Assembly (NCBI RefSeq): GCF_000478585.1 | Contig: NZ_ARWI01000001.1 | Location: forward strand, 620,001 to 684,000 | DNA: 64,000 nucleotides | Direction of reading: 5' to 3' | Source: Thiomicrorhabdus sp. Kp2 | Lineage (GTDB): Bacteria > Pseudomonadota > Gammaproteobacteria > Thiomicrospirales > Thiomicrospiraceae | In this document: positions 1 to 63,652 of the stretch, one piece after another | Layout: every line of letters begins with the position of its first letter | Position numbering within the stretch: the first letter of the stretch is position 1 | Made by a program: the position numbers and the translations under genes | The notes under the pieces: model-generated | Databases searched by the model: none | Told to the model about the DNA's origin: nothing | Seen by the model: only the letters and a program-made list of their open reading frames with translations

Positions 1-878
1 CGTCGGGCTAAATACCGAGGATCTACACCGCCATCTAACATGCGTACCAACCAATATAAAGCGGCATTGGCATCTGAGCCTCTTATCGATTTATGCAGTG
101 CTGATATTTGGTCGTAAAAGGCTTCTCCGCCTTTATCAAAACGCCTTACACCACCTTGAATCACCTCTTTACAGTTTTCGGTCGTTAAAGTGACCAGGCC
201 TGGTAAGTCTGCTCTTACTTCAAATTCGGCAAAATCAATAACTTGTTCTAAGCTATTCAATAAACGTCTTGCATCGCCATCAGCAGCTTCAATTAAGAGC
301 TCTTTGGCTTTATCTTCTATTTCAAGCGTAACGGTTTCATCAATGCTTAAATCTTGTTCAAGTAACGCACGTCCTCGTTCAAGTACTTGTTCGAGTTCGT
401 CATCTTCTAAAACACGTAAAACATAAACTTTAGCACGAGATAGCAAGGCGTTATTGAGTTCAAACGAGGGGTTTTCGGTGGTCGCGCCAATAAATACAAA
501 GGTGCCGTCCTCTACAAACGGCAAAAATGCGTCTTGCTGTGCTTTATTAAAACGATGTACTTCATCTACAAAAAGTAATGTACCTTGTTTAAATTGTTCA
601 CGGTGAAGTTTGGCTTTTTCAACTGCGGCTCTCACCTCTTTCACGCCATCTAATACGGCCGATAAGTTTATGAACTGCAAATCAGATTGCAAAGCAATCA
701 AACGTGCTAAGGTGGTTTTACCTACCCCAGGTGGCCCCCAAAAAACCATAGAGTGTAAACGCCCTGAGTTGAGCATTCGGGATAAGGCACGCTTTTCACC
801 TAATAGGTGTGTTTGCCCAACGTAATCTTCAAGTGTTTTAGGACGTAAACGATCCGAAAGCGGTTGGTAAACAGACAT
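1..878 (-). CDS. rarA: Replication-associated recombination protein A (AAA+ ATPase), 3' end cut by window edge
   Basis: RarA/MgsA is a clamp-loader-like AAA+ ATPase that acts at stalled replication forks. I read this frame from the DNA: it opens MSVYQPLSDRLRPKTL and has Walker A GPPGVGKT at about residues 48-55, Walker B with LLFVDEVHR near residue 100 and the sensor-1 stretch GATTENPSFE. About 292 of the usual 440 or so residues are in the window; the C-terminal tetramerisation part lies beyond base 1. The ATG overlaps the lolA stop by one base (TAATG), so the two are translationally coupled. The ftsK-lolA-rarA order is common in gammaproteobacteria. A CAGGCCTG palindrome copy lies inside the gene at 191-206. 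Family identification is firm. Confidence 0.95.
   Translation of the reverse strand, partial: MSVYQPLSDRLRPKTLEDYVGQTHLLGEKRALSRMLNSGRLHSMVFWGPPGVGKTTLARLIALQSDLQFINLSAVLDGVKEVRAAVEKAKLHREQFKQGTLLFVDEVHRFNKAQQDAFLPFVEDGTFVFIGATTENPSFELNNALLSRAKVYVLRVLEDDELEQVLERGRALLEQDLSIDETVTLEIEDKAKELLIEAADGDARRLLNSLEQVIDFAEFEVRADLPGLVTLTTENCKEVIQGGVRRFDKGGEAFYDQISALHKSIRGSDANAALYWLVRMLDGGVDPRYLAR
191..206. repeat. Dispersed palindrome copy in rarA
   Basis: TGACCAGGCCTGGTAA, one mismatch; encodes LPGLVT in rarA. Confidence 0.85.
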
Positions 879-1516
879 TATTGCGGAGTACCGACCAAAT
901 CAGCCCCTTCAGGCAACTGAAACTGAAAATGCGTGTAAGGAATCACTTGATTGGATTGAATATTGGTAAATTTTACTTTGGTAATGTTATCGGCACTTTG
1001 ATACATCCACACCTCAACCATCTCACCGTCTTTCATCCCCACTTCAATGCTTTGAAAGTAAGTCGCTTGTTTAGGGGTGAGGTTAAACCATCTCAAGCCA
1101 CTTTTATCACCCGATTCGATAATGGTAAACTTATCTTGAATCGGTTCTTTATAAAGCAACCAACTTAAAGGTAGCTCTGCTTTAACATCATTAATTGGGC
1201 GCACGGTTACCTGATCCAGGTCTAAATCGTAAACCCAAAGATTCGTGCCATCCACCACAATCTTTTGCTCTTCTGGCTGAAAATATTGCCAGGTTAATTG
1301 ACCAGGCCTGTTAAGTTCAAAATGCCCCGTAGATTTATTTAATGTAAACAACGCTTCATCTGGTTGAGTTTGCACAAAATCCGCTTTAAAGGTTTGTAAC
1401 TGGTTTACATAGTCTTGTAGGTCTTTACCTGGTTTTTCTTTGCCATTTACCTGAGTGCTAATCGTAAGCGATGCAGTCATTAGCAGACTGAACAATAGTT
1501 TAGAAATACATTTCAC
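878..1516 (-). CDS. lolA: Outer-membrane lipoprotein carrier protein LolA
   Basis: This is the periplasmic chaperone that carries lipoproteins from LolCDE to LolB at the outer membrane. The 212-residue product starts with a Sec signal peptide (MKCISKLLFSLLMTASLTIS, cleavage expected near residue 25) and has the LolA features FKADFVQTQ, then LNRPGQLTWQY and an IVVDGTNLWVYDLDLDQVTV-like stretch typical of the unclosed beta-barrel. Length is normal. It sits between ftsK and rarA in the usual order and overlaps the rarA start by one base. The RPG part of LNRPGQ is encoded by a degenerate copy of the dispersed palindrome (1299-1314). Confidence 0.95.
   Translation of the reverse strand: MKCISKLLFSLLMTASLTISTQVNGKEKPGKDLQDYVNQLQTFKADFVQTQPDEALFTLNKSTGHFELNRPGQLTWQYFQPEEQKIVVDGTNLWVYDLDLDQVTVRPINDVKAELPLSWLLYKEPIQDKFTIIESGDKSGLRWFNLTPKQATYFQSIEVGMKDGEMVEVWMYQSADNITKVKFTNIQSNQVIPYTHFQFQLPEGADLVGTPQ
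1299..1314. repeat. Dispersed palindrome copy in lolA
   Basis: TGACCAGGCCTGTTAA, two mismatches; encodes NRPGQ. Confidence 0.75.
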
Positions 1517-1589
1517 GTTGGATAACCTTATTTAGTAATGGTGTTTAATGATGTTGTTTAAAAACATTTTTTAACAGAAGAGCTTTGTT

Positions 1590-4145
1590 TTAAGATTCTT
1601 GTGGTTTAGGCGCAAGAACTTCACGATTTCCATTTGAACCCGCTGTAGAAACTACCCCAGCAGATTCCATTGCCTCCACAATACGAGCCGCTCGGTTATA
1701 ACCAATTTTAAAACGACGTTGAACCGATGAGATGGAAACCCTTCTACCTTGAACCACAAATTCTACCGCTTCATCATAAAGAGCATCTTGTTCAGCATCA
1801 CCATCATCCAAGCCATTTCCATCTGTACCACTACTGGCTTGGGTTATGGTTTCTAAGTACTGTGGCTTGCCCTGCGACTTCACAAATTCAGCGACTTTAT
1901 GCACCTCTTCGTCGGTCATATAAGCCCCATGCACACGCTTTGGCGAACCTGAACCAGGAGGCATAAAGAGCATATCGCCCATACCAAGCAGCTGCTCTGC
2001 GCCACCTTGGTCAAGAATAGTACGAGAGTCAATTTTGGTATTTACCATAAAAGAGATTCGGGTTGGAATATTGGCCTTAATTAGCCCAGTAATCACGTTA
2101 ACCGATGGTCTCTGAGTAGCTAAAATCAAATGGATTCCAGCAGCACGTGCTTTTTGCGCAATACGGGCAATCAACTGTTCAACCTCTTTACCTACCACCA
2201 TAATCATATCGGCAAATTCATCAACCACCACCACAATAAAAGGCAGTGGCTCAAGAGTCGGTGGAGCTTCACTCATTTCATGACCAAAATTAGCTGCTTG
2301 TTGATATAACGGGTCAATAATTGGCTGACCTTTTTTAATGGCATCGTTCACTTTTAAGTTATAACCCGCAATATTTCTAACACCCAGTTTGGCCATTAGC
2401 TGATAACGTCTGTCCATTTCAAACACACACCAACGTAATGCGTTAGCGGCATCACTCATATCCGTTACCACAGGGGTTAATAAATGTGGAATATCTTCAT
2501 AAATAGAGAGCTCCAACATTTTTGGGTCAACCATAATTAAACGAACTTGTTCAGCCGTACTTTTATATAGCAGACTCAAAATCATGCTGTTAACCCCAAC
2601 CGACTTACCAGACCCTGTGGTACCTGCTACTAATAAGTGAGGCATTTTTGCAATATCCGCAACTACAGGCTTTCCTGCAATGTCTTTACCTAAAGCAACC
2701 GTTAACGGTGAGGACGCTGATTGGAACTCTTCTGAAGCTAAAACTTCTCTAAAGCCCACAATTTCACGCTGTTCATTAGGAATTTCAATACCCACTACCG
2801 CTTTACCTGGAATAACATCAACCACTCGCACGGACTGAACAGATAATACTCGTGCCAAGTCTTTTGCCAGGTTATTGATTTGGCTCACCTTAACACCAGG
2901 CGCAGGCAAGATTTCAAAACGTGTAACAACAGGGCCTGGTTGAACCGATTCCACTTGAACCGTTACACCAAATTCAAGTAAACGTTGCTCTAATAAACCA
3001 GATAAAGCCGTCAATTCATCCTTACTAAAGCCTTCATCATAACTGGGAGGCATATCAAGCAAATCTAATTTAGGAAGCTCGGCTTTTTCTACAATCTGAG
3101 AGGGAGAAGACGCCATTTGTTTTGTGCCCACCGTTAATCCTGGCGTAGTGGGTTTGCTGGAAGATGTTGATGTAGATGGAGTTATTTCTGAAGGAGTCAA
3201 TTCATCAGCTGTTACAAGGACTTGATTCTGCTCCTCATCAGAAGCCTCTGATTTTGAAGCCTCATCGTTGTAAACAGGTGTACTAATAATGGGACTTTGA
3301 ACAGAAGTATTAGGGGATGTTTCTCGTTGGTTTTGTTGCGTATCATTGCCTTTTGTCGGCAAGACTTTAGCTAGCCATTTTTTTCTCGCTTCGGCCGCAT
3401 CACTGCTTGGTGCCAGATTACTCACACCCTGCTTAACTTGGTGATGAATCTTTTGAACGCCCTGTTTAACACTGTCTGACTCCATGACCTTATCTTTAAA
3501 TATATTCGTCACTTTATCGGTTAATTTAACCGCGGCTTTTCCAGTAAATTCAATAATGGTTAACCATGAGCAACTACTCAACATACTAAAAGCCACTGCA
3601 AATAAAATCAGCAGAATTAATGTTGCGCCTAATAGATCCACAGAACCAACCAAGGCATTGCTCAGCTCATAACCTAAAACACCACCCGCAGAGTATGGCA
3701 AGGTAATGAGTGTGTCTGGTTGCATATAGAGATTTGCCAGGCCTGCCCCTGAAGAGATCATGAGCAGTAACCCCAAAAGACTTAATATAAAACGAAGATA
3801 GTCAAGTTCATTACCTGTTCTTATCTTTAAGGTTACCCAGCCTGCCAATAAAATTCCAAATGGAATTAAAAATCCAAATACACCAAAAACATAGAGCAAC
3901 ATAGAGGAAATCCATGCACCAGTGTGACCGCCATAATTTTGCACTGACTGACTTTCACCCACAGAATCAAATCCCGAATCCGTTGGTGAAAAACTAAATA
4001 AAACAATAAATAAGAAAAAGGCTAAACCAATACAACTAAGCACTACGCCGTCTTTTAATATCCAGCCAAAACGTTTTAAAGTGGTGACTTTTTCACCGCT
4101 TTGCGAGTCAGGTTTATTTTCTATTTTTGCAGATTTAAAAGCCAT
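1590..4145 (-). CDS. ftsK: DNA translocase FtsK
   Basis: FtsK is the septal DNA pump that clears chromosome dimers at division and activates XerCD at dif. The 851-residue product has several N-terminal membrane segments in about the first 200 residues, a low-complexity Ser/Thr/Pro/Gln linker (about 250-370), and the alpha/beta/gamma motor. Walker A GTTGSGKS is near residue 507 and Walker B VVVVDEFADM near 640. The C-terminal winged helix with YNRAARIVEAMES (about 800-830) is the gamma domain that reads KOPS. The length is intermediate because the linker is shorter than in E. coli. It is divergent from trxB, with 216 bp between them, and lolA follows 73 bp downstream. Confidence 0.96.
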   Translation of the reverse strand: MAFKSAKIENKPDSQSGEKVTTLKRFGWILKDGVVLSCIGLAFFLFIVLFSFSPTDSGFDSVGESQSVQNYGGHTGAWISSMLLYVFGVFGFLIPFGILLAGWVTLKIRTGNELDYLRFILSLLGLLLMISSGAGLANLYMQPDTLITLPYSAGGVLGYELSNALVGSVDLLGATLILLILFAVAFSMLSSCSWLTIIEFTGKAAVKLTDKVTNIFKDKVMESDSVKQGVQKIHHQVKQGVSNLAPSSDAAEARKKWLAKVLPTKGNDTQQNQRETSPNTSVQSPIISTPVYNDEASKSEASDEEQNQVLVTADELTPSEITPSTSTSSSKPTTPGLTVGTKQMASSPSQIVEKAELPKLDLLDMPPSYDEGFSKDELTALSGLLEQRLLEFGVTVQVESVQPGPVVTRFEILPAPGVKVSQINNLAKDLARVLSVQSVRVVDVIPGKAVVGIEIPNEQREIVGFREVLASEEFQSASSPLTVALGKDIAGKPVVADIAKMPHLLVAGTTGSGKSVGVNSMILSLLYKSTAEQVRLIMVDPKMLELSIYEDIPHLLTPVVTDMSDAANALRWCVFEMDRRYQLMAKLGVRNIAGYNLKVNDAIKKGQPIIDPLYQQAANFGHEMSEAPPTLEPLPFIVVVVDEFADMIMVVGKEVEQLIARIAQKARAAGIHLILATQRPSVNVITGLIKANIPTRISFMVNTKIDSRTILDQGGAEQLLGMGDMLFMPPGSGSPKRVHGAYMTDEEVHKVAEFVKSQGKPQYLETITQASSGTDGNGLDDGDAEQDALYDEAVEFVVQGRRVSISSVQRRFKIGYNRAARIVEAMESAGVVSTAGSNGNREVLAPKPQES
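3734..3749. repeat. Degenerate dispersed palindrome in ftsK
   Basis: CAGGCCTG core (3738-3745) with poor flanks; encodes AGLAN. Confidence 0.55.
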
Positions 4146-5309
<1,164 letters not shown>

Positions 5310-5334
5310 TCGACTTCAAAATCATAGAATGCAC

Positions 5335-5350
5335 TTACCAGGCCTGGTAA
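5335..5350. repeat. Dispersed palindrome, perfect copy (intergenic)
   Basis: TTACCAGGCCTGGTAA. The symmetry extends to 22 bp here (CAC before, GTG after, 5332-5353). It lies between trxB and the FKBP gene. It is not followed by a T tract, so it is not a standard terminator. Confidence 0.9.
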
Positions 5351-5407
5351 GTGTATTTTACACATGCATTAAATCCACATAACCCCAATACACTTAAAGG
5401 CAATTAA

Positions 5408-6097: not shown

Positions 6098-6132
6098 CAC
6101 CGCTCTAAAAAGCTGCACCCTTTATTTTAGAT

Positions 6133-9842: not shown

Positions 9843-10670
9843 TCAATGTAATTTTTTATATATCGTTTGCCCTAATAATTCGAAGCGGTCACACACTTTG
9901 TATAGTGATTCAGAGTGCCCAATAAATAGATGGCCATTATCAGGTAAACGATCTGCATAACGATTAAATAATTTACTTTGCGTTGGCTTATCAAAGTAGA
10001 TTACGACATTTCGGCAAAAAATCACATCAATGGCATCTTTTATAGGCCACTCACTCATTAAATTAAGCTGATCAAATTCAATAACGTCTTGCAATTCAGG
10101 TTTTACTTTGACCAACCCCTCTTGAGAACCTGTTCCTTTTAAAAACCAACGTTTTTTTCGCTCTTCAGTCACGCCTTTTAAACGATCTATTTGGTAAACG
10201 CCACGTTGTCCTGTGTCTACGACATTTGAGTCTAAGTCGGTTGCAATCACTTTTGCATCCCATCCAGCTGGCACCGTTTCTTTTAAGATAATTGCAATTG
10301 AGTAAGGTTCTTCACCCGTAGAACAACCTGCAGACCAAACTCGAATCTTTTTTTTGCTTTGATTCGCTTTTACCAGGCCTGGTATAACCGTATTTGCAAG
10401 ATATTCAAAATGATGGTTTTCTCTAAAGAAGAAGGTTAAGTTGGTAGTAATCGCATTGATTAGATGAACAAATTCTGACTCACCTTGAGCTTCAACATAG
10501 TTTAAATATTCTGCAAATGTTTGCATATTTAAAAAGCGAATGCGCTTTGATAACCGATTGTAAACTAAGTTCTTTTTTGACTCATTTAAATCAATACCTG
10601 CATAATCATAGACAATTTTTTTAACACGATTAAAGTCGCCATCCTGAAAATTAAATTCGCGCTCGCTCAT
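9843..10670 (-). CDS. cheR: Chemotaxis protein methyltransferase CheR
   Basis: CheR methylates receptor glutamates using S-adenosylmethionine. The 275-residue product has the all-helical N-terminal domain (about 10-80) and the SAM-binding domain with IRVWSAGCSTGEEPYSIA near residue 115, the acidic loop ATDLDSNVV and the late motif DVIFCRNVVIYFDKPTQ. Length is typical of single-domain CheR. It begins 220 bp from the divergent FliK-like gene with a candidate sigma-54 promoter in that gap. Residues IPGLVK are encoded by a near-perfect copy of the dispersed palindrome (10370-10385). Confidence 0.97.
   Translation of the reverse strand: MSEREFNFQDGDFNRVKKIVYDYAGIDLNESKKNLVYNRLSKRIRFLNMQTFAEYLNYVEAQGESEFVHLINAITTNLTFFFRENHHFEYLANTVIPGLVKANQSKKKIRVWSAGCSTGEEPYSIAIILKETVPAGWDAKVIATDLDSNVVDTGQRGVYQIDRLKGVTEERKKRWFLKGTGSQEGLVKVKPELQDVIEFDQLNLMSEWPIKDAIDVIFCRNVVIYFDKPTQSKLFNRYADRLPDNGHLFIGHSESLYKVCDRFELLGQTIYKKLH
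10370..10385. repeat. Dispersed palindrome copy in cheR
   Basis: TTACCAGGCCTGGTAT, one mismatch; encodes IPGLVK. Confidence 0.85.
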
Positions 10671-19498: not shown

Positions 19499-20660
19499 TT
19501 GAAATCTCCTTACCTAATCCTAAACGAAAGGCTTGCTCATTTTGATTACTTTCTGTATTTTGCTGACCTAGTACAATCACTCGATCAATAAATTCTCTGG
19601 TTCTCACAGATTCTAGGTCCTCTGGTACTCTTTGCCCATTCGATAAATAGGCAATCGGCAATTGTTCTTCAATTAATACTGTCAGCACATTACCTAATTG
19701 TAAGGCTTCATCCACTTTGGTCAAGATACAACCTGTTAATACAATCTGGTTAAATGATTTTACTATATCTTTCATAACAGATAACTGTGTTGCTGCCGAC
19801 ATAACTAAATAATTCCTGACGGTGGTCACTCCTTCATGTCCTGAAGTCACTTGTTGAGAAAGCTGTAAATCCCTTTGACTCATGCCAGCCGTGTCAATCA
19901 AAATTAATTTTTTATTCGCTAAGGATGCAAGCAATGCATATAACTCTCCTTGCGTTTTAGCGACATGAACAGGAACATTAATCAATTCTGCAAATGTTTT
20001 TAATTGCGCCTGAGCCCCAATCTTATAACAGTCCGTTGTAATCAGAGCCAGCTCGTTTGGGCTGTTTCGCATCACAAAACGACTAGCAATTTTTGCTATA
20101 GTCGTTGTTTTACCAACACCCGTTGGGCCAACTAAAGCAAAAATCCCACCTCGGTCGATCATATCCCTTTCCAAAACAGGAATTTGACTCTCCATTTCTG
20201 CCAATATAGTTGACCAGGCCTGTTGATTCACTACAGGTAGAGCATTGACTAACTTTTCACTTAAATTCCAGCCAACTCCCAGCTTAACTAAACGTTTAAT
20301 CAACTCAATTCTTGCAGGATCATTTTGTTCTGCCTGATTCCAAGCAAGACCTGACAATTGATTTTCAAGCAAGGCACGAACAGCCTTTAACTCTTCTGCC
20401 ATATTGCCTAACTCGGGGCTCGCTTGTTGAGGTGAGGAATTAAACTGTGTGTTTGACATCTCTGGGGAGTGATAAGAACTCCCCTGCGTTTTAGACTTCT
20501 CTTGGTTAGACTGATTCGAATCAGGGTCTAATGCCGCGACAATCTCAACACCATCCTCTGTATCTTTTGTAGACAAAATCACAGCATCATCGCCATGTTC
20601 GTCCCTCACGAGATTCATCGCCTGGCGCATATTAGGTGCAAAATAACGCTTTATTTTCAA
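19488..20660 (-). CDS. flhF: Flagellar biosynthesis SRP-type GTPase FlhF
   Basis: FlhF marks the pole and recruits FliF. The 390-residue product has a basic N-terminal B domain (MKIKRYFAPNMRQAMNLVR), a variable middle, and the NG GTPase domain with GPTGVGKTTTIAKIA near residue 178, LITTDCYKIGAQ, LILIDTAGMSQRD and LTKVDEALQLG. It lies 1 bp from flhA and overlaps flhG. The residues NQQAWS are encoded by a copy of the dispersed palindrome at 20211-20226. Confidence 0.95.
   Translation of the reverse strand: MKIKRYFAPNMRQAMNLVRDEHGDDAVILSTKDTEDGVEIVAALDPDSNQSNQEKSKTQGSSYHSPEMSNTQFNSSPQQASPELGNMAEELKAVRALLENQLSGLAWNQAEQNDPARIELIKRLVKLGVGWNLSEKLVNALPVVNQQAWSTILAEMESQIPVLERDMIDRGGIFALVGPTGVGKTTTIAKIASRFVMRNSPNELALITTDCYKIGAQAQLKTFAELINVPVHVAKTQGELYALLASLANKKLILIDTAGMSQRDLQLSQQVTSGHEGVTTVRNYLVMSAATQLSVMKDIVKSFNQIVLTGCILTKVDEALQLGNVLTVLIEEQLPIAYLSNGQRVPEDLESVRTREFIDRVIVLGQQNTESNQNEQAFRLGLGKEISSAQ
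20211..20226. repeat. Degenerate dispersed palindrome in flhF
   Basis: ACCAGGCCTG core; encodes QQAWS in a third reading frame. Confidence 0.65.
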
Positions 20661-20661
20661 G

Positions 20662-22752
20662 TTATCCTCCCTGACCTACGCTTGCGACTACACTGATCTG
20701 TCGATTTTCTGGCACCTCAGAATACGCTAAAATATACAGAGTTGGCAAACTATACCTAAACAGTCTTGCCAATTGCGCTCTAATTTGCGGAGCAACCAGC
20801 AATACAGCGGATTGGCCAGACATTTCCATTTTCTGCGATTCTTCTTTTAGCGTGCCGTGCAATCTTTCTGCCAGGCCTGGTTCAATCGCGAGCTGACCTT
20901 CTGGCGCGCCTTGAGTTGCTTGGAGCAATATCTGTTCCAAGCTAGGGTCCAAAGTAATGACTTTTAACTCTTCATCTTGACCAACGATGTCTTGAATAAT
21001 GGAACGTCCTAAAGCGGTACGTACGTGAATCGTTAAGTCAGCGGCATCTTGTGTCTGACCAGACTGCTTAGTTAAGGTTTCTAAAATGGTACGCATATCG
21101 CGAATTGAAACCTTCTCCCGCAAAAGATTCTGTAATACTTTAACTAAAGTCGCAAGTGATAACTTGTCAGGCACAAGCTCTGTTACTAATTTTGGAGAGG
21201 CGTTTTTTACTTTATCTAATAGTTGCTGAACCTCATCATGCCCAAGTAATTCAAAAGCATAATCTTGAATAAGCTGACTAACATGGGTTGCTACAACCGT
21301 GCTTGAGTCAACAACCGTATAACCAAGCGCCTGAGCTTGGTCTTGATCAGAAGGAGCAATCCAAACGGCATCAAGTCCAAAAGTTGGATCTTTGGTTACC
21401 GTTCCTGCGATTTCTCCAAACACTTGCCCAGGATTAATGGCAAGCTCACGTTCAGGGAATACCTCTCCATCACCTGCTGGAACGCCCATCAACATCACTC
21501 GGTATTGATTAGGTTTTAAATCTAAATTATCACGAATATGAACAGGAGGTACTAAAAAGCCCAGTTCTTGTGAAACTTTACGTCGTACCCCTTTAACTCG
21601 ATCTAATAATTGGCCATTTTGAGCTTGATCTACCATCGGAATTAGTCGGTAACCGACTTCTAAACCTAGCACATCTACCGATTGAACATCGTCCCAACTT
21701 AAGTCGGCAGGTTTTGATTCAACTTCTTCTGGGATTTCAATAGGCTCAGTCTGCAACCCCTCTTTTTTCTGTTTATGGATAAGATAAGCTCCACCTCCAG
21801 CCACACTTGCGAAAGCTAGAAATGCGAAGTTTGGCATACCTGGTATTAACCCTAAAAATCCAACAATCCCTGCTGCCGTTCCTAAAGCTTTTGGGTTAGC
21901 AAACATCTGTAACTGAATCTGCTCACCCATGTCTTTTTTATCACCACCTGTAACACGGGTCACAATAATGGCTGTGGCAGTAGAGAGTAATAAGGCTGGA
22001 ATTTGAGCGACAAGCCCATCACCTAACGTCAAGATGGTATAAACCTGGGCAGCATTACTGAATGAGAGGTCGTGCTGCCCGACACCTATCGCAAACCCAC
22101 CAATCAAGTTAATGAATAATATAATAATTCCAGCGATGGCGTCACCACGAACAAATTTACTTGCCCCATCCATCGAACCATAAAATTCTGCCTCAGTCGC
22201 AATTTCAGCACGTCTGACTTGCGCTTCCTCTTGCGTAATTAGGCCAGCATTTAAATCGGCATCAATGGCCATCTGTTTACCTGGCATGGAATCCAAAGTA
22301 AATCGTGCGCTGACTTCTGCAACTCGCCCAGCCCCTTTCGTTATAACCACAAAGTTAATAACAACCAATATCGCAAAGACGACTAAACCTACCGCATAAT
22401 TTCCACCAATTACAAACTCACCAAAAGCGGCAATGACTTCCCCTGCTGAAGCTCCCCCTGTGTGCCCCTCTAAAAGAATAACCCTGGTTGAGGCGATATT
22501 AAGAGAAAGCCTAAATAAGGTTGCCAGTAAAATAATGGTTGGAAAAACAGCAAAATCCAAAGGTCTTTTGGCATACAAGGTAACCATTAATACCACAAGA
22601 GAAAGTGCAATATTGAAGGTAAAGAATATATCAAGTAAAAAAGGAGGGAGCGGTATTGTAACCATACCCAATAGAGCCAGCACAGCAATTGGTACACCCA
22701 AGCTGCTAGCCATGCTCTGTTTTGCTTTATTGAGTAATTGAGTAAAGTTCAT
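20662..22752 (-). CDS. flhA: Flagellar type III export protein FlhA
   Basis: FlhA forms the nonameric export ring and uses proton motive force. The 696-residue product has about eight N-terminal membrane helices (to about residue 330), including the FHIPEP-type loop region LDSMPGKQMAIDADLNAG, then a large cytoplasmic domain that binds chaperone-substrate pairs. Length is standard. It follows flhB and precedes flhF in the usual order. EPGLAE in the C-terminal domain is encoded by a degenerate palindrome copy at 20868-20883. Confidence 0.97.
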   Translation of the reverse strand: MNFTQLLNKAKQSMASSLGVPIAVLALLGMVTIPLPPFLLDIFFTFNIALSLVVLMVTLYAKRPLDFAVFPTIILLATLFRLSLNIASTRVILLEGHTGGASAGEVIAAFGEFVIGGNYAVGLVVFAILVVINFVVITKGAGRVAEVSARFTLDSMPGKQMAIDADLNAGLITQEEAQVRRAEIATEAEFYGSMDGASKFVRGDAIAGIIILFINLIGGFAIGVGQHDLSFSNAAQVYTILTLGDGLVAQIPALLLSTATAIIVTRVTGGDKKDMGEQIQLQMFANPKALGTAAGIVGFLGLIPGMPNFAFLAFASVAGGGAYLIHKQKKEGLQTEPIEIPEEVESKPADLSWDDVQSVDVLGLEVGYRLIPMVDQAQNGQLLDRVKGVRRKVSQELGFLVPPVHIRDNLDLKPNQYRVMLMGVPAGDGEVFPERELAINPGQVFGEIAGTVTKDPTFGLDAVWIAPSDQDQAQALGYTVVDSSTVVATHVSQLIQDYAFELLGHDEVQQLLDKVKNASPKLVTELVPDKLSLATLVKVLQNLLREKVSIRDMRTILETLTKQSGQTQDAADLTIHVRTALGRSIIQDIVGQDEELKVITLDPSLEQILLQATQGAPEGQLAIEPGLAERLHGTLKEESQKMEMSGQSAVLLVAPQIRAQLARLFRYSLPTLYILAYSEVPENRQISVVASVGQGG
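20868..20883. repeat. Degenerate dispersed palindrome in flhA
   Basis: GCCAGGCCTGGT core; encodes EPGLAE. Confidence 0.7.
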
Positions 22753-23920: not shown

Positions 23921-24697
23921 TTACTCCGTTAAACGCAACTGACTAATAACATCGACAGCGCGATGAATTAACTCTTGAAGGTGTGGTAAAACAATTGGCG
24001 TTGTTAGCGACAACATTACCAGGCCTGCTAACAGGGTAACAGGAAAACCAACCGCAAAGATATTTAACGAGGGGGCTGCTCGTGTGACCACGCCAAAAGA
24101 GACGTTAATCAATAATAAAGCGGTTATTGCTGGCAAAGCAACCAACACCCCAGCAGTAAACATATAACTACCAAATTCTACCAACAACCACAAACTATCT
24201 GTATTAAAAAAGTGTATGCCTATTGGCAGGTATTCAAAGCTATCCGCCATTACCTGAATGACTAATAGATGACCATTTAAAGCTAAAAACAGTAGCGTCA
24301 CGACAATGGTAAAATACTGAGAAACAACTGGTGAGTTAACCCCCGTTCCAGGATCAACCATTTGCGCAAAGGCCAAACCCATTCCCATTGAGATTAAATG
24401 CCCCGCAATAACAAAAGCCTGAAAAACAACCAAAAACACCAGCCCCATTGCCAAACCGATTAACATCTGCTGCAAAATATATAGAACACCTTGCCAAGTA
24501 AATGGATCAACAGGAGGTGGCATTGAGAGAGATGGCGCAATAACGAGTGTTAAAAAAAAGGTTAAAATAACTCTAGAACGTACAGGAACAGACCTAAGTC
24601 CGTACAAAGGAATAATAGAGAGCATTGCACCAATTCTTACAAATGGGTAGAAGTACAAACCAACCAGCTGTAAAAATTCTGGATAGTTAAATGACAT
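23921..24697 (-). CDS. fliR: Flagellar export gate protein FliR
   Basis: FliR is part of the FliPQR export gate. The 258-residue product has about six hydrophobic stretches, e.g. VILTFFLTLVIAPSLSM and MLIGLAMGLVFLVVFQAFVIA, and the typical GMGLAFAQMVDPGTGVNSPVVSQ loop. Length is normal. It is 4 bp downstream of fliQ. LAGLVM is encoded over a near-perfect palindrome copy at 24016-24031. Confidence 0.96.
   Translation of the reverse strand: MSFNYPEFLQLVGLYFYPFVRIGAMLSIIPLYGLRSVPVRSRVILTFFLTLVIAPSLSMPPPVDPFTWQGVLYILQQMLIGLAMGLVFLVVFQAFVIAGHLISMGMGLAFAQMVDPGTGVNSPVVSQYFTIVVTLLFLALNGHLLVIQVMADSFEYLPIGIHFFNTDSLWLLVEFGSYMFTAGVLVALPAITALLLINVSFGVVTRAAPSLNIFAVGFPVTLLAGLVMLSLTTPIVLPHLQELIHRAVDVISQLRLTE
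24016..24031. repeat. Dispersed palindrome copy in fliR
   Basis: TTACCAGGCCTGCTAA, one mismatch; encodes LAGLVM. Confidence 0.85.
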
Positions 24698-25723: not shown

Positions 25724-26165
25724 GAGGCTGCTGGCTCTTTCCCTTAGATTTTATGGCTTCTTGAAGCCTTTGCGAAAATTGGCTGGATACAGGGACATTA
25801 TCCTGTACTTTAATAGGTTCTTCAAGCTGATGTAACCGACTGATTCGATTAGAGGTGACTCCAACAAGGATTTGTTCTTGTCCCACTTGTAACAGTAAAA
25901 TGCGCTCTCTTTGTCCAACTGACAAAGCACCAAGAACTTTAAGATTACCATCAGCGACCCCTGGAAACCTACCATAACGCCTTAGCAACCAAGCGGAGAC
26001 AAAAATAATAAGTAAAACTAAAACCAAAGACAAGACAATCTGCCCAAAGTATTCACTGGGCTGAGTAACCTTTTCTCCAATCTCAGCGCTTTTAGTTTCA
26101 GCAGCTACCCATGCAGACTGTAGAAATAAAAAGCCTGTTAACCAGGCCTGCTTCATTAAACTCAT
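25710..26165 (-). CDS. fliO: Flagellar export assembly protein FliO
   Basis: The 151-residue product has an N-terminal signal-like segment, one membrane helix (LVLVLLIIFVSAWLLRRYG, about 45-66) and the FliO cytoplasmic part LKVLGALSVGQRERILLLQVG. FliO helps FliP assemble. It lies 4 bp after fliN and overlaps fliP by 14 bp. Near its start KQAWLT is encoded by a palindrome copy (26139-26154). Confidence 0.92.
   Translation of the reverse strand: MSLMKQAWLTGFLFLQSAWVAAETKSAEIGEKVTQPSEYFGQIVLSLVLVLLIIFVSAWLLRRYGRFPGVADGNLKVLGALSVGQRERILLLQVGQEQILVGVTSNRISRLHQLEEPIKVQDNVPVSSQFSQRLQEAIKSKGKSQQPREDN
26139..26154. repeat. Degenerate dispersed palindrome in fliO
   Basis: AACCAGGCCTG core; encodes KQAWLT. 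Confidence 0.65.
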
Positions 26166-40094: not shown

Positions 40095-41245
40095 GAGACT
40101 TCCTTTATAGACGTTAGAGGTAAACGCAAGCCAAATTGCGTACCATAACCAACAATGGATTTAACCCAAACTTCACCATTATGCGCTTCGGCAATAGCTC
40201 GTACTACTGCCAGCCCAAGACCCGTCCCTTTTGCACGACTGGTATAAAAGGGTTCAAATATTTTTTCTAAACGTTCCGCACTGATACCAGGGCCCTTGTC
40301 ACTGACCACTAAATCAACCTTATCTGCTGAGAGTTTATTGACGGTAACGGCAATTTCAGCTTTCTGCCCAACCACATCAATGGCATTACCCACTAAGTTT
40401 TGCAAAGCGGTCATTAAAGCATCTTTATCGCCAGTAACCACCAGGCCTGGTATAAAAGCGTTAAAACGAATGCGACTTTGGGACTGATTAACCTGAGCCT
40501 CAACACTCTGCTCAAGGTTGGCCAAAAGCTCTTCAATTAAAATTTCTTTTTCACTGCCCTTGCCTCCTTTAGCATATTGCAGCATATCTTTAACCAGAGA
40601 TTCTAAATGATTAAGGCTGTTAAGCGCTTTACCTACAAACTTTTCTCTTTTATCATCATCCAAGTGTTCAGAGTTCATTTGTGAAACATAAAGCAATGCG
40701 GAAGAGAGTGGTGTACGAATCTGATGTGCTAAAGAAGCGGCCATTTCGCCCATTGAATGTAAGCGCTGATGGCGACTTACATGCTCTTGAAGCTGTCTAG
40801 CAGATGTCACATCTTGAATGAGCAAAATTCGGCTTGATTCTTTATCTGAAGAGGTTTCGGATAATTGATAAACAATCTTATTATGTGTGATTAATTCACC
40901 TGCGTCATTGGTACTAAGAAACACATTCTTAATCACAATATCCCAATCACGATCAATCGCATCCCTACCTAATATCGTTTGAGCACTCGGGTTCATTTCC
41001 ACAATTTGGTTATGATGATTCAAAACAATAACCCCCGCTGGAAGCAACTCTAAAAGGCGACTTAGACGGTCTGCTACCTGTTTTTTCTCTTGGTCACTCT
41101 TTGCGAGCTGGTTCTGTAAGTGAGCCGCTTGGTTCTGCAAAGCTTCGTAAGAGGTCGTAAGCTGCATAGAGGTTTGGTTAAAGAGTTCAAAAGCCGCCTC
41201 TAACTCTTGTAAACGCTTTTGTTCTTCCATGTCTATTGAATCCAC
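40091..41245 (-). CDS. flrB: Flagellar sensor histidine kinase FlrB/FleS
   Basis: FlrB phosphorylates FlrC. The 384-residue product is cytoplasmic: a coiled coil (about 1-60), a PAS domain (LLPAGVIVLNHHNQIVEMNP, about 65-130), HisKA with the phospho-acceptor His in AASLAHQIRTPLSSAL (near 172) and HATPase with NLVGNAIDV, SDKGPGIS and GTGLGLAVV. It has no membrane helix, as in FlrB and FleS. FIPGLVV is encoded by a palindrome copy at 40438-40453. Confidence 0.93.
   Translation of the reverse strand: MDSIDMEEQKRLQELEAAFELFNQTSMQLTTSYEALQNQAAHLQNQLAKSDQEKKQVADRLSRLLELLPAGVIVLNHHNQIVEMNPSAQTILGRDAIDRDWDIVIKNVFLSTNDAGELITHNKIVYQLSETSSDKESSRILLIQDVTSARQLQEHVSRHQRLHSMGEMAASLAHQIRTPLSSALLYVSQMNSEHLDDDKREKFVGKALNSLNHLESLVKDMLQYAKGGKGSEKEILIEELLANLEQSVEAQVNQSQSRIRFNAFIPGLVVTGDKDALMTALQNLVGNAIDVVGQKAEIAVTVNKLSADKVDLVVSDKGPGISAERLEKIFEPFYTSRAKGTGLGLAVVRAIAEAHNGEVWVKSIVGYGTQFGLRLPLTSIKEVS
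40438..40453. repeat. Degenerate dispersed palindrome in flrB
   Basis: ACCAGGCCTGGTA core; encodes IPGLVV. Confidence 0.75.
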
Positions 41246-43215: not shown

Positions 43216-43231
43216 TTACCAGGCCTGGCAA
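43216..43231. repeat. Dispersed palindrome, near-perfect copy (intergenic)
   Basis: TTACCAGGCCTGGCAA, one mismatch, in the 75-bp gap between fliD and fliS. Confidence 0.85.
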
Positions 43232-47699: not shown

Positions 47700-47715
47700 T
47701 TACCAGGCCTGGTAA
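47700..47715. repeat. Dispersed palindrome, perfect copy (intergenic)
   Basis: TTACCAGGCCTGGTAA, seven bases after the stop codon of the upstream flagellin gene and before the leader hairpins. Confidence 0.9.
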
Positions 47716-51922: not shown

Positions 51923-51938
51923 TTACCAGGCCTGGTAA
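51923..51938. repeat. Dispersed palindrome, perfect copy (intergenic)
   Basis: TTACCAGGCCTGGTAA with symmetry extended to 20 bp (51921-51940, AG before and CT after), between pseI and the methylase gene. Confidence 0.9.
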
Positions 51939-53635: not shown

Positions 53636-54714
53636 TTAAGACTCTCTATGACTCGATTAACCCCTAGCCCGTCGGTCACTTTAGCGGATTCAAACGCCAT
53701 TGAAACCTGATCTGTGAGCAATGATTCAAACAGTTCACACAACCGTTCAAAATGATCAAGCGATAATAACTTAACGGCGCTAATTGACTGCAAATTGTGA
53801 GCGATGTTTTTTTGGTTATCGGCCAATACCACCATTAGTGTAGGTAAACCTAAACAACATCTTTCCCAACTAGTCGCCCCAGCGGCTCCAATACATACAT
53901 CCACATGGGCCATCAATTCAGCCATATTATTAACGCCTGAGAGTACATCAACCCGATAAGGTAATGACTGAGCGAGTTCATTTATCTCTTTCAAAAAAGG
54001 GGCTGTTCCTCCCAAGACGACTTGCACATGCAAGTTTTTCGGCAACGAGCAACGAATCAATCCTTGGAGCAATTTACTGGTTACATTATCAGGGTCTACA
54101 CCACCCATTGAAATAAGAAGCGTCTCACAGTTCGCCTTAATTCTGCGCTGTAAACTGTAATCACGCCATTGCGAGAACTCTGGTCTTAACAAGGCGTATT
54201 GCGAGCCGAGTAATAACTGACAGTGCTCAGGCACTCGCGAACGGTAATCCTCCTGCTCCCTGCCAAAGGTTTGATCCAACAACAGATTACATAGATGTTT
54301 ACGATCTGCTAAGTCATCGATAACAAAAAGCTTTTTATAATAAGAGGTTAGTTCCTGTTGCCAGCGGTAATCTATCGCATAATGATCAACAATCAACCAA
54401 TCGACTTTATTGAATTTTGATAGGATTTCTTTACAAGCGAACGCATCGCCCAACTGGCTGTCTCCCAGCCAATCGGCATGAAACAGTTTATCTGTTTTGT
54501 CAGAGTTACCAGGCCTGGTAACATTCAGAGCTTCAAGTAAAAAAACCTCATAGCCTTTTTGTTCAATCAATTGAACCAAGTTCCCCTCATGCGCTCGACA
54601 AATAAATCGAACAGTTGCCCCCTCGTTAACCAGAGCATCGGCAAGTGTTAAGCAACGCATAACATGCCCTGTTCCAATGGTATGTGAGGCGTCGGCTCTT
54701 ATGACAACATGCAC
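53632..54714 (-). CDS. pseG: UDP-sugar hydrolase PseG
   Basis: PseG removes UDP from UDP-2,4-diamido-2,4,6-trideoxy-altrose before PseI. The 360-residue product has a GT-B-like hydrolase fold with IRADASHTIGTGHVMRCLTL (catalytic His near residue 19), ISMGGVDPDN and the C-terminal GAAGATSWERCCLGLPTLMV. It overlaps pseF by 16 bp. VTRPGN is encoded by a perfect palindrome copy. Confidence 0.93.
   Translation of the reverse strand: MHVVIRADASHTIGTGHVMRCLTLADALVNEGATVRFICRAHEGNLVQLIEQKGYEVFLLEALNVTRPGNSDKTDKLFHADWLGDSQLGDAFACKEILSKFNKVDWLIVDHYAIDYRWQQELTSYYKKLFVIDDLADRKHLCNLLLDQTFGREQEDYRSRVPEHCQLLLGSQYALLRPEFSQWRDYSLQRRIKANCETLLISMGGVDPDNVTSKLLQGLIRCSLPKNLHVQVVLGGTAPFLKEINELAQSLPYRVDVLSGVNNMAELMAHVDVCIGAAGATSWERCCLGLPTLMVVLADNQKNIAHNLQSISAVKLLSLDHFERLCELFESLLTDQVSMAFESAKVTDGLGVNRVIESLK
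54506..54521. repeat. Dispersed palindrome, perfect copy in pseG
   Basis: TTACCAGGCCTGGTAA, 18-bp symmetry; encodes VTRPGN. Confidence 0.9.
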
Positions 54715-55424: not shown

Positions 55425-56581
55425 ATTAAATCTCGTTCCAATATTTTAACCACTTTATCTTGTTCTTGTTCAGTCATGGCGTGAAAAACAGGAATACTAA
55501 TGACTTGCTGATAATAAGCTTCAGCCATAGGAAAATCCCCCTCTGCAAACCCCATTTGTTGATAAAAGGGTTGGGTGTGTATCGGAATATAATGAATATT
55601 CACACCAATACCATGCTCACGAAGCGCTTTAAAAACCTGAGCTCTGGTTTTAAAAATCAGGTTGGTTTGAATGAGTATCGGGTATAGGTGAAAGGATGAA
55701 TCAGTGTCGGCATGCTGAAAAGGTAAAACCAAAGGCAGGTTATGCAACAATTCATCATACCGTTTGGCAAACGCTTGACGAATGCAGACAAATTCATCGA
55801 CACGTTGCATTTGACTAATCCCTAATGCCGCTTGCATTTCAGTCATGCGATAGTTAAAACCTAAATCAACTTGCTGGTAATACCATTCACCCTCCAATGC
55901 CTTTGTCATCAGATGAGGCTCACGCGTCACACCATGACTTCTTAGCAGTTGCATTTTTTCTGCCAGGCCTGGTTGATTTGTGGTGGCAACACCGCCTTCA
56001 CCCGTGGTGACAATCTTAACGGGATGAAAGCTAAACACCGTAATATCCGAATATTGGCAACCACCAATGGGTTTACCTAAATATTTACCGCCAATGGCAT
56101 GAGAGGCGTCTTCAATAATCTTAAAACCGTATTCTAGGCTGAGTTCATAAATACGTTTCATCTCGCAAGACTGGCCTGCAAAATGCACGGGAATCACAAT
56201 TTTAGGTAATTGATTAGTCTGCTTGGCTTGCTTGAGCTTCTCTTCTAAGTGATTGGCACACATGTTGTAAGTGTGTGGATTGATATCCACAAAATTCACT
56301 TTGGCGCCACAATATAACCCGCAGTTTGCTGAAGCAACAAATGAGTTTGGGCTGGTCCAAAGCCAGTCGCCCTCTCCTAGCCCTAAAGCCAAACAAGCAA
56401 TATGCAAGGCGGAGGTTGCACTGTTAACCGCAACCCCATAGTTAGCCCCACAATAGTTGGCAACGGTTTTTTCAAACAAGGGTACTTGCGGGCCTTGGGT
56501 TAAATAGTCTGACTTTAAAACCTCTACGACCGCATCAATATCGGTTTGTGAAATATCTTGCTTACCATAAGGAATCATCAA
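55421..56581 (-). CDS. pseC: UDP-4-amino-4,6-dideoxy-altrose transaminase PseC
   Basis: PseC is a PLP enzyme that transaminates the PseB product. The 386-residue DegT/DnrJ protein has SATSALHIACLALG, the PLP-contact Asp in IEDASHAIGG and the catalytic Lys in VFSFHPVKIVTTGEGG (near 186). Q-P-G-L-A near residue 205 is encoded by a degenerate palindrome copy. It lies 8 bp after pseB and overlaps pseF by 4 bp. Confidence 0.95.
   Translation of the reverse strand: MMIPYGKQDISQTDIDAVVEVLKSDYLTQGPQVPLFEKTVANYCGANYGVAVNSATSALHIACLALGLGEGDWLWTSPNSFVASANCGLYCGAKVNFVDINPHTYNMCANHLEEKLKQAKQTNQLPKIVIPVHFAGQSCEMKRIYELSLEYGFKIIEDASHAIGGKYLGKPIGGCQYSDITVFSFHPVKIVTTGEGGVATTNQPGLAEKMQLLRSHGVTREPHLMTKALEGEWYYQQVDLGFNYRMTEMQAALGISQMQRVDEFVCIRQAFAKRYDELLHNLPLVLPFQHADTDSSFHLYPILIQTNLIFKTRAQVFKALREHGIGVNIHYIPIHTQPFYQQMGFAEGDFPMAEAYYQQVISIPVFHAMTEQEQDKVVKILERDLI
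55960..55975. repeat. Degenerate dispersed palindrome in pseC
   Basis: GCCAGGCCTGGT core; encodes QPGLAE. Confidence 0.7.
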
Positions 56582-56589: not shown

Positions 56590-57600
<1,011 letters not shown>

Positions 57601-57619
57601 TTAAGCCATTACGGCGATA

Positions 57620-58915
57620 CTAAGCAGCTAGATTAAGCAGTTCTTTATATCGATGTTTAGCCTGCGTCACTTTTTCTATGTATTTTTTTGTTTCATCCGA
57701 CTGATGACTGTATCTTAAGGTACGATATACCTGGCGCGGGTGCAACTGATTAATCCTTTTAATCGCTTTTTCAGGTGTATTGCCAAACAATTTTAACACC
57801 GTTGATAATCCACCGTTATAAGAGGAAATAGCAACCAATTCTTTGTTTTCTGAATTGCGTATCCCCTTTAAATAAAGGTTATTCAGTAACCCTATATAAG
57901 CCGTACCGACTCTAATATTCTCTTTAGGATTAAACAGTTCCGATTGCGTTGGTTGCCCAACCCGCTGATCAATCAGTTTATAGACATCTCTTCCTGCTGC
58001 ATTGGCTTTAACTTGCATTAAGCCTAAGGCGTTGGATTGACTCACGGCTCGTGGATTAAAAGCACTCTCGACATGCATAATCGCAAAAATAAGCTCTGCA
58101 GATACTTTATATTTTTTAGCATACTCATTTACCCAGGCCTGGTAACTCTTGATTGAATTTGGAATTTGAAGCTCTGTCAAAGGAATCGTTACAACGGTAA
58201 ATACTCCCTGCTCATCTTCTACCTTTTGGCGGTGATTAATTAACAAATATTCAGCATACCTAAACGCTTGCGCTGGGTAACGAATCGGTTTTTTATATTG
58301 ATTGAGTGCCTTCGCATATAAATAAGGCTTTAAACGGGTATCAATCGCAGATGATGAAACTAAATCATCGGCATCTAAATAGTTGGGTTGAACCAATAAT
58401 CGAGATAAAGCTTTTTGCATCTCTCTTTCAGAGTAGTCCGCCGTAAACTCCACCACAACTTCATTGTCTAACTCAACCACGAGGGGGGCGCTTTTATCCG
58501 TTGATTCGATAGCACTTGCGGGCTTACTTATTAAGGTATCAGATGCAAACAACTCATTTTTATTCCCTGTCTGATTTTCATACGGAGTTGAATATGAACG
58601 GTAGTCCAGCCCTGTCTCAGCATCAGCAGCTTTGAACTCTATGGGTGTTGATTTTTTGGCGCTCTCGGCAAGCTCATTATCCAAAATATCTTTTTCGGAG
58701 ATTAAACTAGACCGAGAAGGAAGGTAGTTTTCGGACACAATCGAGCGAAGTCCAATAGCCCCATAAACATGTGTAACCTCTTGTTTATTAGAACCTTTTA
58801 AGGCAGCTGAATTTAAAGTCATCCAATTTTGAAACGACGCCACATAGCTGGCACTCAGCAATATCAGTGCAAACATAAATACGGTTATCGTCATTGTCAT
58901 CATTTGTTTATTCAC
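57620..58915 (-). CDS. MltC-like lytic murein transglycosylase
   Basis: This enzyme cleaves glycan strands of peptidoglycan without hydrolysis. The 431-residue product has an N-terminal membrane anchor (MMTMTITVFMFALILLSASY, about 5-25; no lipobox Cys seen), a DUF3393-like N-terminal domain (about 140-250) and a C-terminal SLT domain with the catalytic Glu in IFAIMHVESAFNPRAVS, then ALGLMQVKANAAGRD and ISSYNGGLSTVLKLF. MltC is usually a lipoprotein of about 360; this one has an extra 100-residue linker. It starts with GTG, and the ribosome site is the arm of a hairpin (next entry). Its place beside flgL and flgJ suggests a flagellar role. Confidence 0.82.
   Translation of the reverse strand: MNKQMMTMTITVFMFALILLSASYVASFQNWMTLNSAALKGSNKQEVTHVYGAIGLRSIVSENYLPSRSSLISEKDILDNELAESAKKSTPIEFKAADAETGLDYRSYSTPYENQTGNKNELFASDTLISKPASAIESTDKSAPLVVELDNEVVVEFTADYSEREMQKALSRLLVQPNYLDADDLVSSSAIDTRLKPYLYAKALNQYKKPIRYPAQAFRYAEYLLINHRQKVEDEQGVFTVVTIPLTELQIPNSIKSYQAWVNEYAKKYKVSAELIFAIMHVESAFNPRAVSQSNALGLMQVKANAAGRDVYKLIDQRVGQPTQSELFNPKENIRVGTAYIGLLNNLYLKGIRNSENKELVAISSYNGGLSTVLKLFGNTPEKAIKRINQLHPRQVYRTLRYSHQSDETKKYIEKVTQAKHRYKELLNLAA
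58130..58145. repeat. Dispersed palindrome copy in the transglycosylase gene
   Basis: TACCCAGGCCTGGTAA; encodes YQAWVN. Confidence 0.75.
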
Positions 58916-58941: not shown

Positions 58942-58979
58942 AGCAAAACAAAGACCAAGTTTACGTGAGATTATCGCCT

Positions 58980-60008: not shown

Positions 60009-60012
60009 AATT

Positions 60013-61803: not shown

Positions 61804-61848
61804 AACGCGCTCCTATTCTGGTCAGAATATTTTTGAAAAAAATTTCAA

Positions 61849-62313: not shown

Positions 62314-62332
62314 TCATTTTACTCCTAGATGA

Positions 62333-63433
62333 CTAAATAATCATCAAATCCGCTTTTAAGGCACCCGACTGTTTTAATGCTTCTAAAATAGCCACCAAAT
62401 CACCAGGAGCTGCACCTACCTTATTTACCGCTTGAACAATATCATTTAAAGATACGCCCTCTGGAAATTTAAACATTCTACCCGTACCATTTTGCTCAAC
62501 ACCCACTACTGTGTTTGGCGTTACAGCTGTATTGCCACCCGCAAACGGGTTTGGTTGTGAAACTTCAGCCGATTCAGAAATTTTGACAGTCAGCCCACCA
62601 TGCGTCACTGCCGCAGGACTCACTCTAACGTTTTGTCCAATGACTACGGTACCCGTTCTCGAGTTCACAATAATTTTGGCAGCACTTTGACCTGGTGTGA
62701 CTTCAATATTTTCTAAAATTGATAAAAACGCAACACGTTGATTAGGTAAGCGCGGCGCCATCACTTCGACCGATTCACCATCTAGTGCACTGGCCGTGCC
62801 TGCTCCTAACTGCTCATTGATTGCATTAACTAAATTAGAGGCGGTTGTAAAGTCAGCATCTTTTAGGTTTAAAGTAATCGTATTCCCTAATTCAAACCCT
62901 GTATTTACCGTTCTTTCAACCATAGCACCATCAGGAATTCGCCCAACACTTGGGACATTAATGGTAATTCTTGAACCATCTGCACCACTCGCATCTAGGC
63001 CCCCTACAACTAAGTTCCCCTGGCCTAAAGCGTAAACATTTCCGTCAACCCCTTTTAACGGAGTCAACAGCAAAGTACCGCCACGTAAGCTTTTAGCGTT
63101 ACCTAGTGATGAAACAGTAATATCAATCTTTTGACCGGATTTAGCAAAGGCAGGTAATTCAGCGTGAACTGCCACTGCAGCGATGTTTTTAGAGTTGGTT
63201 TTAACACCTGCTGGCACTTTAATACCGAACTTATTTAACATACTCAGTAAACTCTGCTCGGCAAACGGGGTTTTATCGCCAGAGCCATTTAAGCCAACCA
63301 CCAGACCATAGCCAACGAGTTGGTTAGAACGAACGCCTCCGACATTAGCAATATCCTTGACTCTTTCTGCATAACTGTAACTGCTCCAAGAGAGAAGCAA
63401 TGTCAAAAAGATGACTATTTGTTTGCTGTACAT
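62333..63433 (-). CDS. flgI: Flagellar P-ring protein FlgI
   Basis: FlgI builds the periplasmic P ring. The 366-residue product has a signal peptide ([17 protein letters not shown], cleavage about 22), then [20 protein letters not shown], which is the family hallmark, and a C-terminal [24 protein letters not shown]. It lies 19 bp before flgJ and has a sigma-54-type promoter. Confidence 0.97.
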
Positions 63434-63540
63434 ATTATTTCCCCTACCTATGTAGTGTTTTATCTGGTTAAAACGGTTTTTTATATTTTTTTAAACCTCT
63501 GCTTCTAACGAGCAGATAGGTTTATCCTATGTGATTAAAA

Positions 63541-63555
63541 GCATAGGCTATGCCA
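63541..63555 (-). promoter_or_regulatory. Sigma-54 promoter for flgI-J-K-L
   Basis: On the minus strand TGGCAT-N5-ATGC with correct spacing, about 110 bp upstream of flgI; the site also contains a 6-bp inverted repeat. Confidence 0.65.
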
Positions 63556-63636
63556 AATAAATAAAAAAGTTAAAGCTTTTCGTAACTTGGCCGATAATAA
63601 GGCTTTTTAAAAAACACATAAAATGAAATCGAAAAG

Positions 63637-63652
63637 TTACCAGGCCTGGTAA
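63637..63652. repeat. Dispersed palindrome, perfect copy (intergenic)
   Basis: TTACCAGGCCTGGTAA in the flgI-flgH spacer. Confidence 0.9.

Follow-up and report, generated by a model that had tools for sequence, protein, structure and literature searches.

A scattered palindrome in Thiomicrorhabdus sp. Kp2 and other Thiomicrospiraceae, a possible genome-wide self-recognition signal

The window analysed here, a 64-kb stretch of the Thiomicrorhabdus sp. Kp2 genome (bases 620001-684000 of a single contig of 2,725,706 bp), carries flagellar and other genes across which copies of a palindrome with the 8-bp core CAGGCCTG are scattered (Table 1). An initial annotation, made from the letters alone, had reported 19 cores, six of them in perfect 16-mers, and had placed 14 copies in genes and five between genes, four of the latter perfect; every core and every perfect 16-mer was recovered at its position, and the recount gave the same split. 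Site-bearing genes matched the Pfam models for LolA, FtsK, CheR, the SRP54-type GTPase (FlhF), FHIPEP (FlhA), the FliR family, FliO, FliK, histidine kinase, DegT-type aminotransferase, polysaccharide epimerase and SLT transglycosylase. The open reading frame (ORF) named pseG had no Pfam match, and RarA was recognized by eye only. Three further 16-mers with two to three mismatches (16874, 39067 and 41694) do not contain the core and count merely as near misses. An Rfam search of the window returned no curated RNA family at the gathering threshold.

Table 1. Copies of the palindrome in the 64-kb window and one associated predicted hairpin (window coordinates).
Feature	Coordinates	Strand	Context
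Palindrome copy TGACCAGGCCTGGTAA	191..206 (core 195-202)	.	Partial gene at left edge, ADLPGLV (PGL); RarA-like by eye only
Palindrome copy	1299..1314	.	In lolA, NRPG
Palindrome copy	3734..3749	.	In ftsK, AGL
Perfect 16-mer	5335..5350	.	Between reductase-like gene (stop 5309) and FKBP gene (start 5408)
Predicted terminator-like hairpin around the 5335 copy	5325..5360	+	16-bp stem, loop GGCC
Palindrome copy	10370..10385	.	In cheR, PGL
Palindrome copy	20211..20226	.	In flhF, QAW
Palindrome copy	20868..20883	.	In flhA, PGL
Palindrome copy	24016..24031	.	In fliR, AGL
Palindrome copy	26139..26154	.	In fliO, QAW
Perfect 16-mer	32294..32309	.	In fliK, PGL
Palindrome copy	40438..40453	.	Histidine kinase gene (initially flrB), PGL
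Palindrome copy, one mismatch	43216..43231	.	Intergenic
Perfect 16-mer	47700..47715	.	Between two ORFs, the right one flagellin
Perfect 16-mer	51923..51938	.	Intergenic
Perfect 16-mer	54506..54521	.	ORF initially called pseG, TRPG; no Pfam match
Palindrome copy	55960..55975	.	DegT-type aminotransferase gene (initially pseC), PGL
Palindrome copy	56822..56837	.	Polysaccharide epimerase gene (initially pseB), IRPG
Palindrome copy	58130..58145	.	Lytic transglycosylase gene, QAW
Perfect 16-mer	63637..63652	.	Intergenic, beyond flgI

The 19 cores compare with 0.54 ± 0.69 in 100 dinucleotide shuffles of the window (maximum 3), in agreement with the initial estimate of fewer than one. Confinement to this region and a frequency near Markov expectation had both been named as outcomes that would refute the observation; instead, genome-wide counts are 155 for the perfect 16-mer and 557 for its inner 12-mer ACCAGGCCTGGT, and the core occurs at 38 times its order-2 Markov expectation (355 observed vs 9.4 expected) in a sample of 844 kb comprising the window and 39 other stretches, or 31% of the genome. 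Extrapolation gives ~1,146 cores per genome. Pooled smaller samples from other carriers contained 221 cores vs 13.0 expected, with enrichment ranging from 4-fold, in two GC-rich Hydrogenovibrio, to 45-fold.

The core itself (8 bp) is all-or-none. Cores with one mismatch occur at chance in the 844 kb (200 seen, 207 expected), so that no cloud of decayed forms surrounds the intact core, and other carriers showed 206 such forms vs 256 expected. One-mismatch forms of the 10-mer CCAGGCCTGG numbered 76 vs 3.7 expected. In the first 464 kb of the sample (the window and L031-L050), AGGCCT lies inside all 41 of 41 TTACC-N6-GGTAA frames, and half-sites spaced by 1-8 bp do not occur. Outside the core AGGCCT is at chance (of 264 occurrences, 198 fall in cores; base composition predicts 65 outside them), as are the half-sites CCTGGTAA (43 vs 38.5 expected), GCCTGGTA (34 vs 27.9), GCCTGGT (127 vs 119.7) and CCTGGT (349 vs 420.5), which rules out a one-strand signal of the Chi type. 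Around the core, preference weakens outward to ~22 bp, giving the consensus AAnTTACCAGGCCTGGTAAnTT, which reads GGTAAnTT on either flank whether the copy is genic or intergenic. In correction of the initial description, the core is strict and shows no fading from the centre, and the consensus extends to ~22 bp.

Genic copies in the window use all three frames, encoding PGL or AGL in eight cases, RPG in three and QAW in three, as first tallied. Because these peptides are unrelated, a protein-level motif was rejected, and the earlier proposal of selection at the DNA level is supported.

Gene placement was scored on genes called by a simple longest-ORF rule. Genes contain 240 of the 352 scored sites and intergenic DNA the other 112; coding sequence makes up 88.7% of the bases. 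Across 43 stretches core density is flat (chi-square 49.2, 42 degrees of freedom, p 0.21), it neither rises nor falls away from the likely origin at 1.58 Mb (rho -0.02, p 0.92), and in the first 464 kb the spacing of sites is indistinguishable from random. This flat density rules out a chromosome-end or origin signal, and the segregation signal considered in the initial annotation was not borne out. As a separate observation, GC skew changes from plus to minus near 0.18 Mb and from minus to plus near 1.58 Mb, which places the origin probably at the latter position rather than at base 1.

Intergenic copies differ from genic ones in their potential to fold. They favour convergent gaps (27 vs 17.4 expected) over divergent gaps (12 vs 29.8), pair in excess at flank position 5, where there is no consensus (53/112 vs 29.5 ± 4.7), and at position 8 (46 of 112 vs 32.8 ± 4.5), and fold more stably than flank-shuffled copies (-9.2 vs -5.0 kcal/mol). 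The 5335 copy lies 25 bases past a stop codon inside the predicted 16-bp stem, whose folding energy of -19.9 kcal/mol (z -5.24) was equalled in 0 of 200 shuffles; the other five perfect copies in the window fold more weakly (z -0.5 to -2.4). Genic flanks were paired modestly more often than expected at positions 2-4 over the first 464 kb, an excess that in 844 kb is left at position 3 alone (z 2.6). Where both flanks depart from consensus, no compensatory excess was found in genic copies over the 844 kb (12/22 vs 9.2; 6/24 vs 8.9; 33/68 vs 29.2; 19/46 vs 19.7), so that the paired excess is explained by stronger and weaker sites. The genic pattern argues for recognition of double-stranded DNA. 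An RNA hairpin had been considered less likely than a role at the DNA level; we reject it for the genic copies and retain it for the intergenic subset, which has the additional hairpin complementarity and the preference for gene 3' ends.

Conservation at orthologous sites was assessed over a flagellar region of ~20 kb, and the counts below derive from few and non-independent site pairs, the flhF copy recurring in many of them. Sites were often kept between carriers. Four carrier pairs retained 4/5, 4/4, 6/7 and 3/4 (17/20), seven further pairs of carriers or core-bearing species retained 8/24, and all 11 together kept 25/44 aligned sites vs 5-19% for GC-rich control 8-mers. In ten pairs with species whose locus is motif-less, most of them judged from one locus of 19-21 kb, 0/28 sites were kept, with controls at 3-7%. 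The flhF copy (20211..20226) is common to Thiomicrorhabdus, Hydrogenovibrio and Thiomicrospira; motif-less loci carry at this site CAGGCTTG, CAGGCATG, CTGGCCTG or further variants, one to three changes away. The element looks old, held at the DNA level where it is active and gone elsewhere, and we infer that the direction of change is loss rather than repeated gain.

Relatives identified through FlhF belong to Thiomicrorhabdus, Hydrogenovibrio, Thiomicrospira and Sulfurivirga, on which basis the family is read as Thiomicrospiraceae. Across 62 genomes of this family the 12-mer is present in 84-718 copies in 27, in 16-38 copies in four and in 0-6 copies in 31, whereas each of 80 genomes from elsewhere in the class has it once or not at all. 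We counted 31 carriers, namely the 27 high-count genomes and the dialect genomes G024, G005, G018 and G026; G008 (38 copies), sparsely sampled, was left unassigned. The 12-mer has zero copies in G037 (putative Sulfurivirga caldicuralii), though three cores lie in a 20-kb locus (L149) of another Sulfurivirga record. Mapped on a 50-genome FtsK tree, with carriers bounded at 80 copies of the 12-mer and dialect genomes scored as non-carriers, the carrier state requires at least 6 changes, a count that depends on one gene, a quick search and a tree in which 14/47 inner branches are weak. One exact 16-mer each was also seen in four IMG/VR contigs (L301-L304).

Some relatives carry a different dialect of the palindrome. 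G024, one of the 31 genomes with 0-6 copies of the 12-mer, contains 66 copies of CCGGCCGG in 140 kb, flanked by TAAA, and a single CAGGCCTG; its palindrome ACCGGCCGGT occurs 1,025 times there and at most 15 times in each of 59 other genomes examined. One-off cores of this dialect are not in excess either (17 vs 21.9 expected), and of its six sites alignable with other sampled DNA only one falls on a CAGGCCTG, located in the G022 ftsK gene. Two sampled species, putatively T. chilensis and Thiomicrorhabdus sp. zzn3, keep the core while leaning to ACAGGCCTGT. No comparably enriched palindrome was found in the motif-less genomes G003, G020, G025, G031, G053 and G057, in samples of 20-40 kb each from which weak signals may escape. 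G055, left out of the motif-less set, carries AGCCGGCT 18 times in 20 kb and non-palindromic 8-mers equally often, a pattern suggestive of a local repeat. Separately, TGATCA and TGGCCA reach ~3-10 times their base-composition expectation in loci of 7-21 kb (L130, L134 and L146-L149), as does CAGCTG in L146-L148; this excess may reflect codon usage.

The palindrome thus combines a strict 8-bp core, graded flanks, conservation at the DNA level, dialects, patchy presence and a hairpin-like intergenic subset. Our preferred reading, held tentatively, is that it serves as a genome-wide self-recognition signal resembling the DNA uptake sequence (DUS), read by a protein that is probably dimeric. Such a protein would recognize the palindrome on double-stranded DNA in a sequence-specific manner, its dimeric nature being suggested by the symmetry and the all-or-none core, in keeping with the type of reader first proposed. 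Alleles bearing the signal would be favoured, most likely through preferential uptake and recombination, and the signal would thereby spread and be repaired at many scattered places. A shift in reader specificity could then build up a new dialect, loss of the reader would let copies erode, and intergenic copies at gene ends may have been partly co-opted as transcription-terminator hairpins. The DUS-like behaviour is argued from about a thousand re-specified sites lying mostly off the old ones, from repeated absence and from the intergenic hairpins, and the occurrence of ComEC in 30/31 carriers is compatible with it. Motif-biased uptake has been described mainly for Neisseriaceae and Pasteurellaceae.

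Several results weigh against an uptake signal. One-mismatch forms of the 8-bp core are not over-represented, unlike those of DUS and the uptake signal sequence (USS), while those of the 10-mer CCAGGCCTGG are, and in the source excerpts neither DUS nor USS is a palindrome by itself. The 0/28 retention in motif-less loci is not below the controls and so indicates loss of protection rather than active removal. ComEC is too widespread to discriminate: it was found in 55/60 genomes, 30/31 carriers and 25/29 non-carriers, and also in E. coli. The carrier without it, G006, is a draft at 82% completeness. For ComP_DUS (PF16732), 0/60 genomes gave a match over the cut-off and one a weak match below it, with a model that may miss distant pilins. 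FimT-like GspH was rejected, its matches being confined to three genomes, all motif-less, and none of the families searched (methyltransferases, ComP_DUS, GspH and ComEC) yielded a reader gene. As side observations, G031, near-complete and motif-less, has no ComEC match while its motif-less sister in the FtsK tree, G014, has one, and a motif scan of sampled Kp2 DNA located four prepilin-like reading frames at 1820001-1840000 (L044), a stretch with only four cores.

Among the explanations weighed, we judged an uptake-type signal the likeliest, a chromosome-organising protein its main rival and a methyltransferase-linked palindrome less likely. The main rival, which we consider rather unlikely, holds that the copies are binding sites of a dimeric nucleoid-associated protein, evenly spread and each weakly selected. 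Perfect symmetry without a spacer, the strict core, graded 22-bp flanks with T-rich edges, flat density without origin trend, spacing indistinguishable from random in the first 464 kb and genic copies without compensatory pairs all fit it. Repeated loss nevertheless seems difficult for a protein that binds at about a thousand places, as does its re-specification to about a thousand ACCGGCCGGT sites, of which one of the six alignable ones falls on an old site; known proteins with dispersed sites, among them Noc, SlmA and MatP, number theirs in the tens.

A palindrome of the type of HIP1 (highly iterated palindrome 1), linked with an orphan DNA methyltransferase and with some process that depends on methylation, appears decidedly unlikely, although the strict octamer and its massive excess fit and, in the excerpted text of PMC4390886, HIP1 and alternative palindromes accompany methyltransferases. 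The methyltransferase suggested initially was not supported, since the distribution of none of the four families tested (PF00145, PF01555, PF02384 and PF02086) follows the motif, a wrong distribution by which they were ruled out as its cause; Eco57I-type and other methyltransferase families lay outside this search. PF00145, whose search covered 60 genomes with only 17/31 carriers among them, had no match in 11 of these 17 and a match below cut-off in a twelfth, and PF01555 was missing from 19/31 carriers. PF02384 gave some match in many carriers, including two in the ACCGGCCGGT genome, which lacks PF00145 and PF01555 matches and whose 8-bp core contains no adenine; in G033 (289 copies) a borderline PF02384 match was the only one. 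Two low-density carriers, G028 (putative Thiomicrorhabdus arctica, 333 copies) and G018 (16 copies of ACCAGGCCTGGT), had zero matches to all four families. In G028, 80 kb contained 10 cores, and one-off cores numbered 29 vs 22.3 expected; given their low density, a recent loss is possible in both genomes. In Kp2 itself, the 464-kb sample has about 20 times fewer CCGG sites than base composition predicts (35 vs 717), GATC too is scarce (646 vs 1661 expected), and a cytosine-C5 methyltransferase gene match lies at 1920679-1921653; CCGG depletion and this gene perhaps reflect a CCGG restriction system.

Biased repair or recombination, not uptake, could also make and restore the palindrome, for instance at a nuclease or recombination hotspot, and the missing one-off cloud, which implies strong restoration or purifying selection, and the mostly new positions of the second dialect (1/6 coinciding) point this way. 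Signals of the Chi kind lack palindromic symmetry and are read from a single strand, half-sites alone are not enriched here, and we know of no enzyme with the specificity of the palindrome; we regard this account as improbable. A family of RNA hairpins or terminators (UUACCA-GGCC-UGGUAA) is highly improbable, for while the intergenic complementarity, stabler folds, convergent-gap preference, 5335 hairpin and residual genic paired-flank excess speak for it, 240/352 copies are genic without compensatory excess, the strictest part would be the loop, and the remaining perfect window copies fold unremarkably.

Returning to the self-recognition signal, it is possible, if less probable than the general reading, that the palindrome represents an independent, fully palindromic lineage of such signals in Thiomicrospiraceae, in which a receptor or gatekeeper acting as a dimer would admit or favour DNA carrying an all-or-none octamer and the dialects may act as species barriers among these sulfur oxidisers. 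It was not classed as DUS because the ComP receptor searched for was not recovered, nor as HIP because no methyltransferase link emerged in the families searched, and among the open-licence PubMed Central papers listed in the searches none was found to report the motif, nor did any contain the 12-mer ACCAGGCCTGGT. The relatives that keep, lack or reword the motif are natural replicates in which the reader should be a gene lost or altered in step, and a palindromic, dimer-readable signal allows the cause of accumulation, whether uptake, repair or chromosome organisation, to be tested directly.

Sites of Noc, SlmA, MatP and ParB are bound by dimeric proteins, have little or no spacer and number in the tens with regional bias; the present sites number about a thousand, with no origin or terminus bias. 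Repetitive extragenic palindromic and bacterial interspersed mosaic elements (REP/BIME) are extragenic hairpins, usually longer, in contrast to a palindrome that is mostly genic and whose half-sites have no spacer. The USS of Pasteurellaceae has AT-rich flanks and a terminator association. It is also a scattered motif with two dialects (excerpts of PMC12616744 and PMC1939737) but, in the latter excerpt, is non-palindromic with an excess of one-mismatch forms. That source gives observed/expected ratios for such forms of ~3 for H. influenzae USS and ~5.8 for N. gonorrhoeae DUS, and ~11-fold for the 10-mer HIP1; computed on entire motifs, these values are not exactly comparable with our 8-bp core alone, one-off cores being at chance here while one-off 10-mers are in excess. 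HIP1 of cyanobacteria, whose likeness in concept had been recognized initially, is a palindromic octamer with alternative palindromes in some relatives (PMC4390886, in excerpt), and our motif is likewise a hugely over-represented palindromic octamer with alternatives. It differs in sequence (CAGGCCTG, not GCGATCGC), in hosts (Thiomicrorhabdus and kin, not cyanobacteria), in lacking a cognate methyltransferase among the four families tested and in flanks graded to ~22 bp. The Neisseriaceae DUS (PMC3630211, in excerpt) numbers ~one to six thousand, with copies in genes and between them, terminator pairs, species dialects (one arising through a base insertion) and some DUS-less family members. 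Our element differs in being palindromic at the core of every copy, in its bacterial group and in the lack of a ComP homologue over the cut-off in 60 genomes. It resembles the DUS in being a short motif in strong excess within and between genes, in its dialects and motif-less relatives, and in intergenic copies that are terminator-like by sequence, position and predicted fold; the same text describes overlapping dyad-symmetric DUS pairs in Simonsiella and Kingella, for which its authors consider a dimer mechanism possible.

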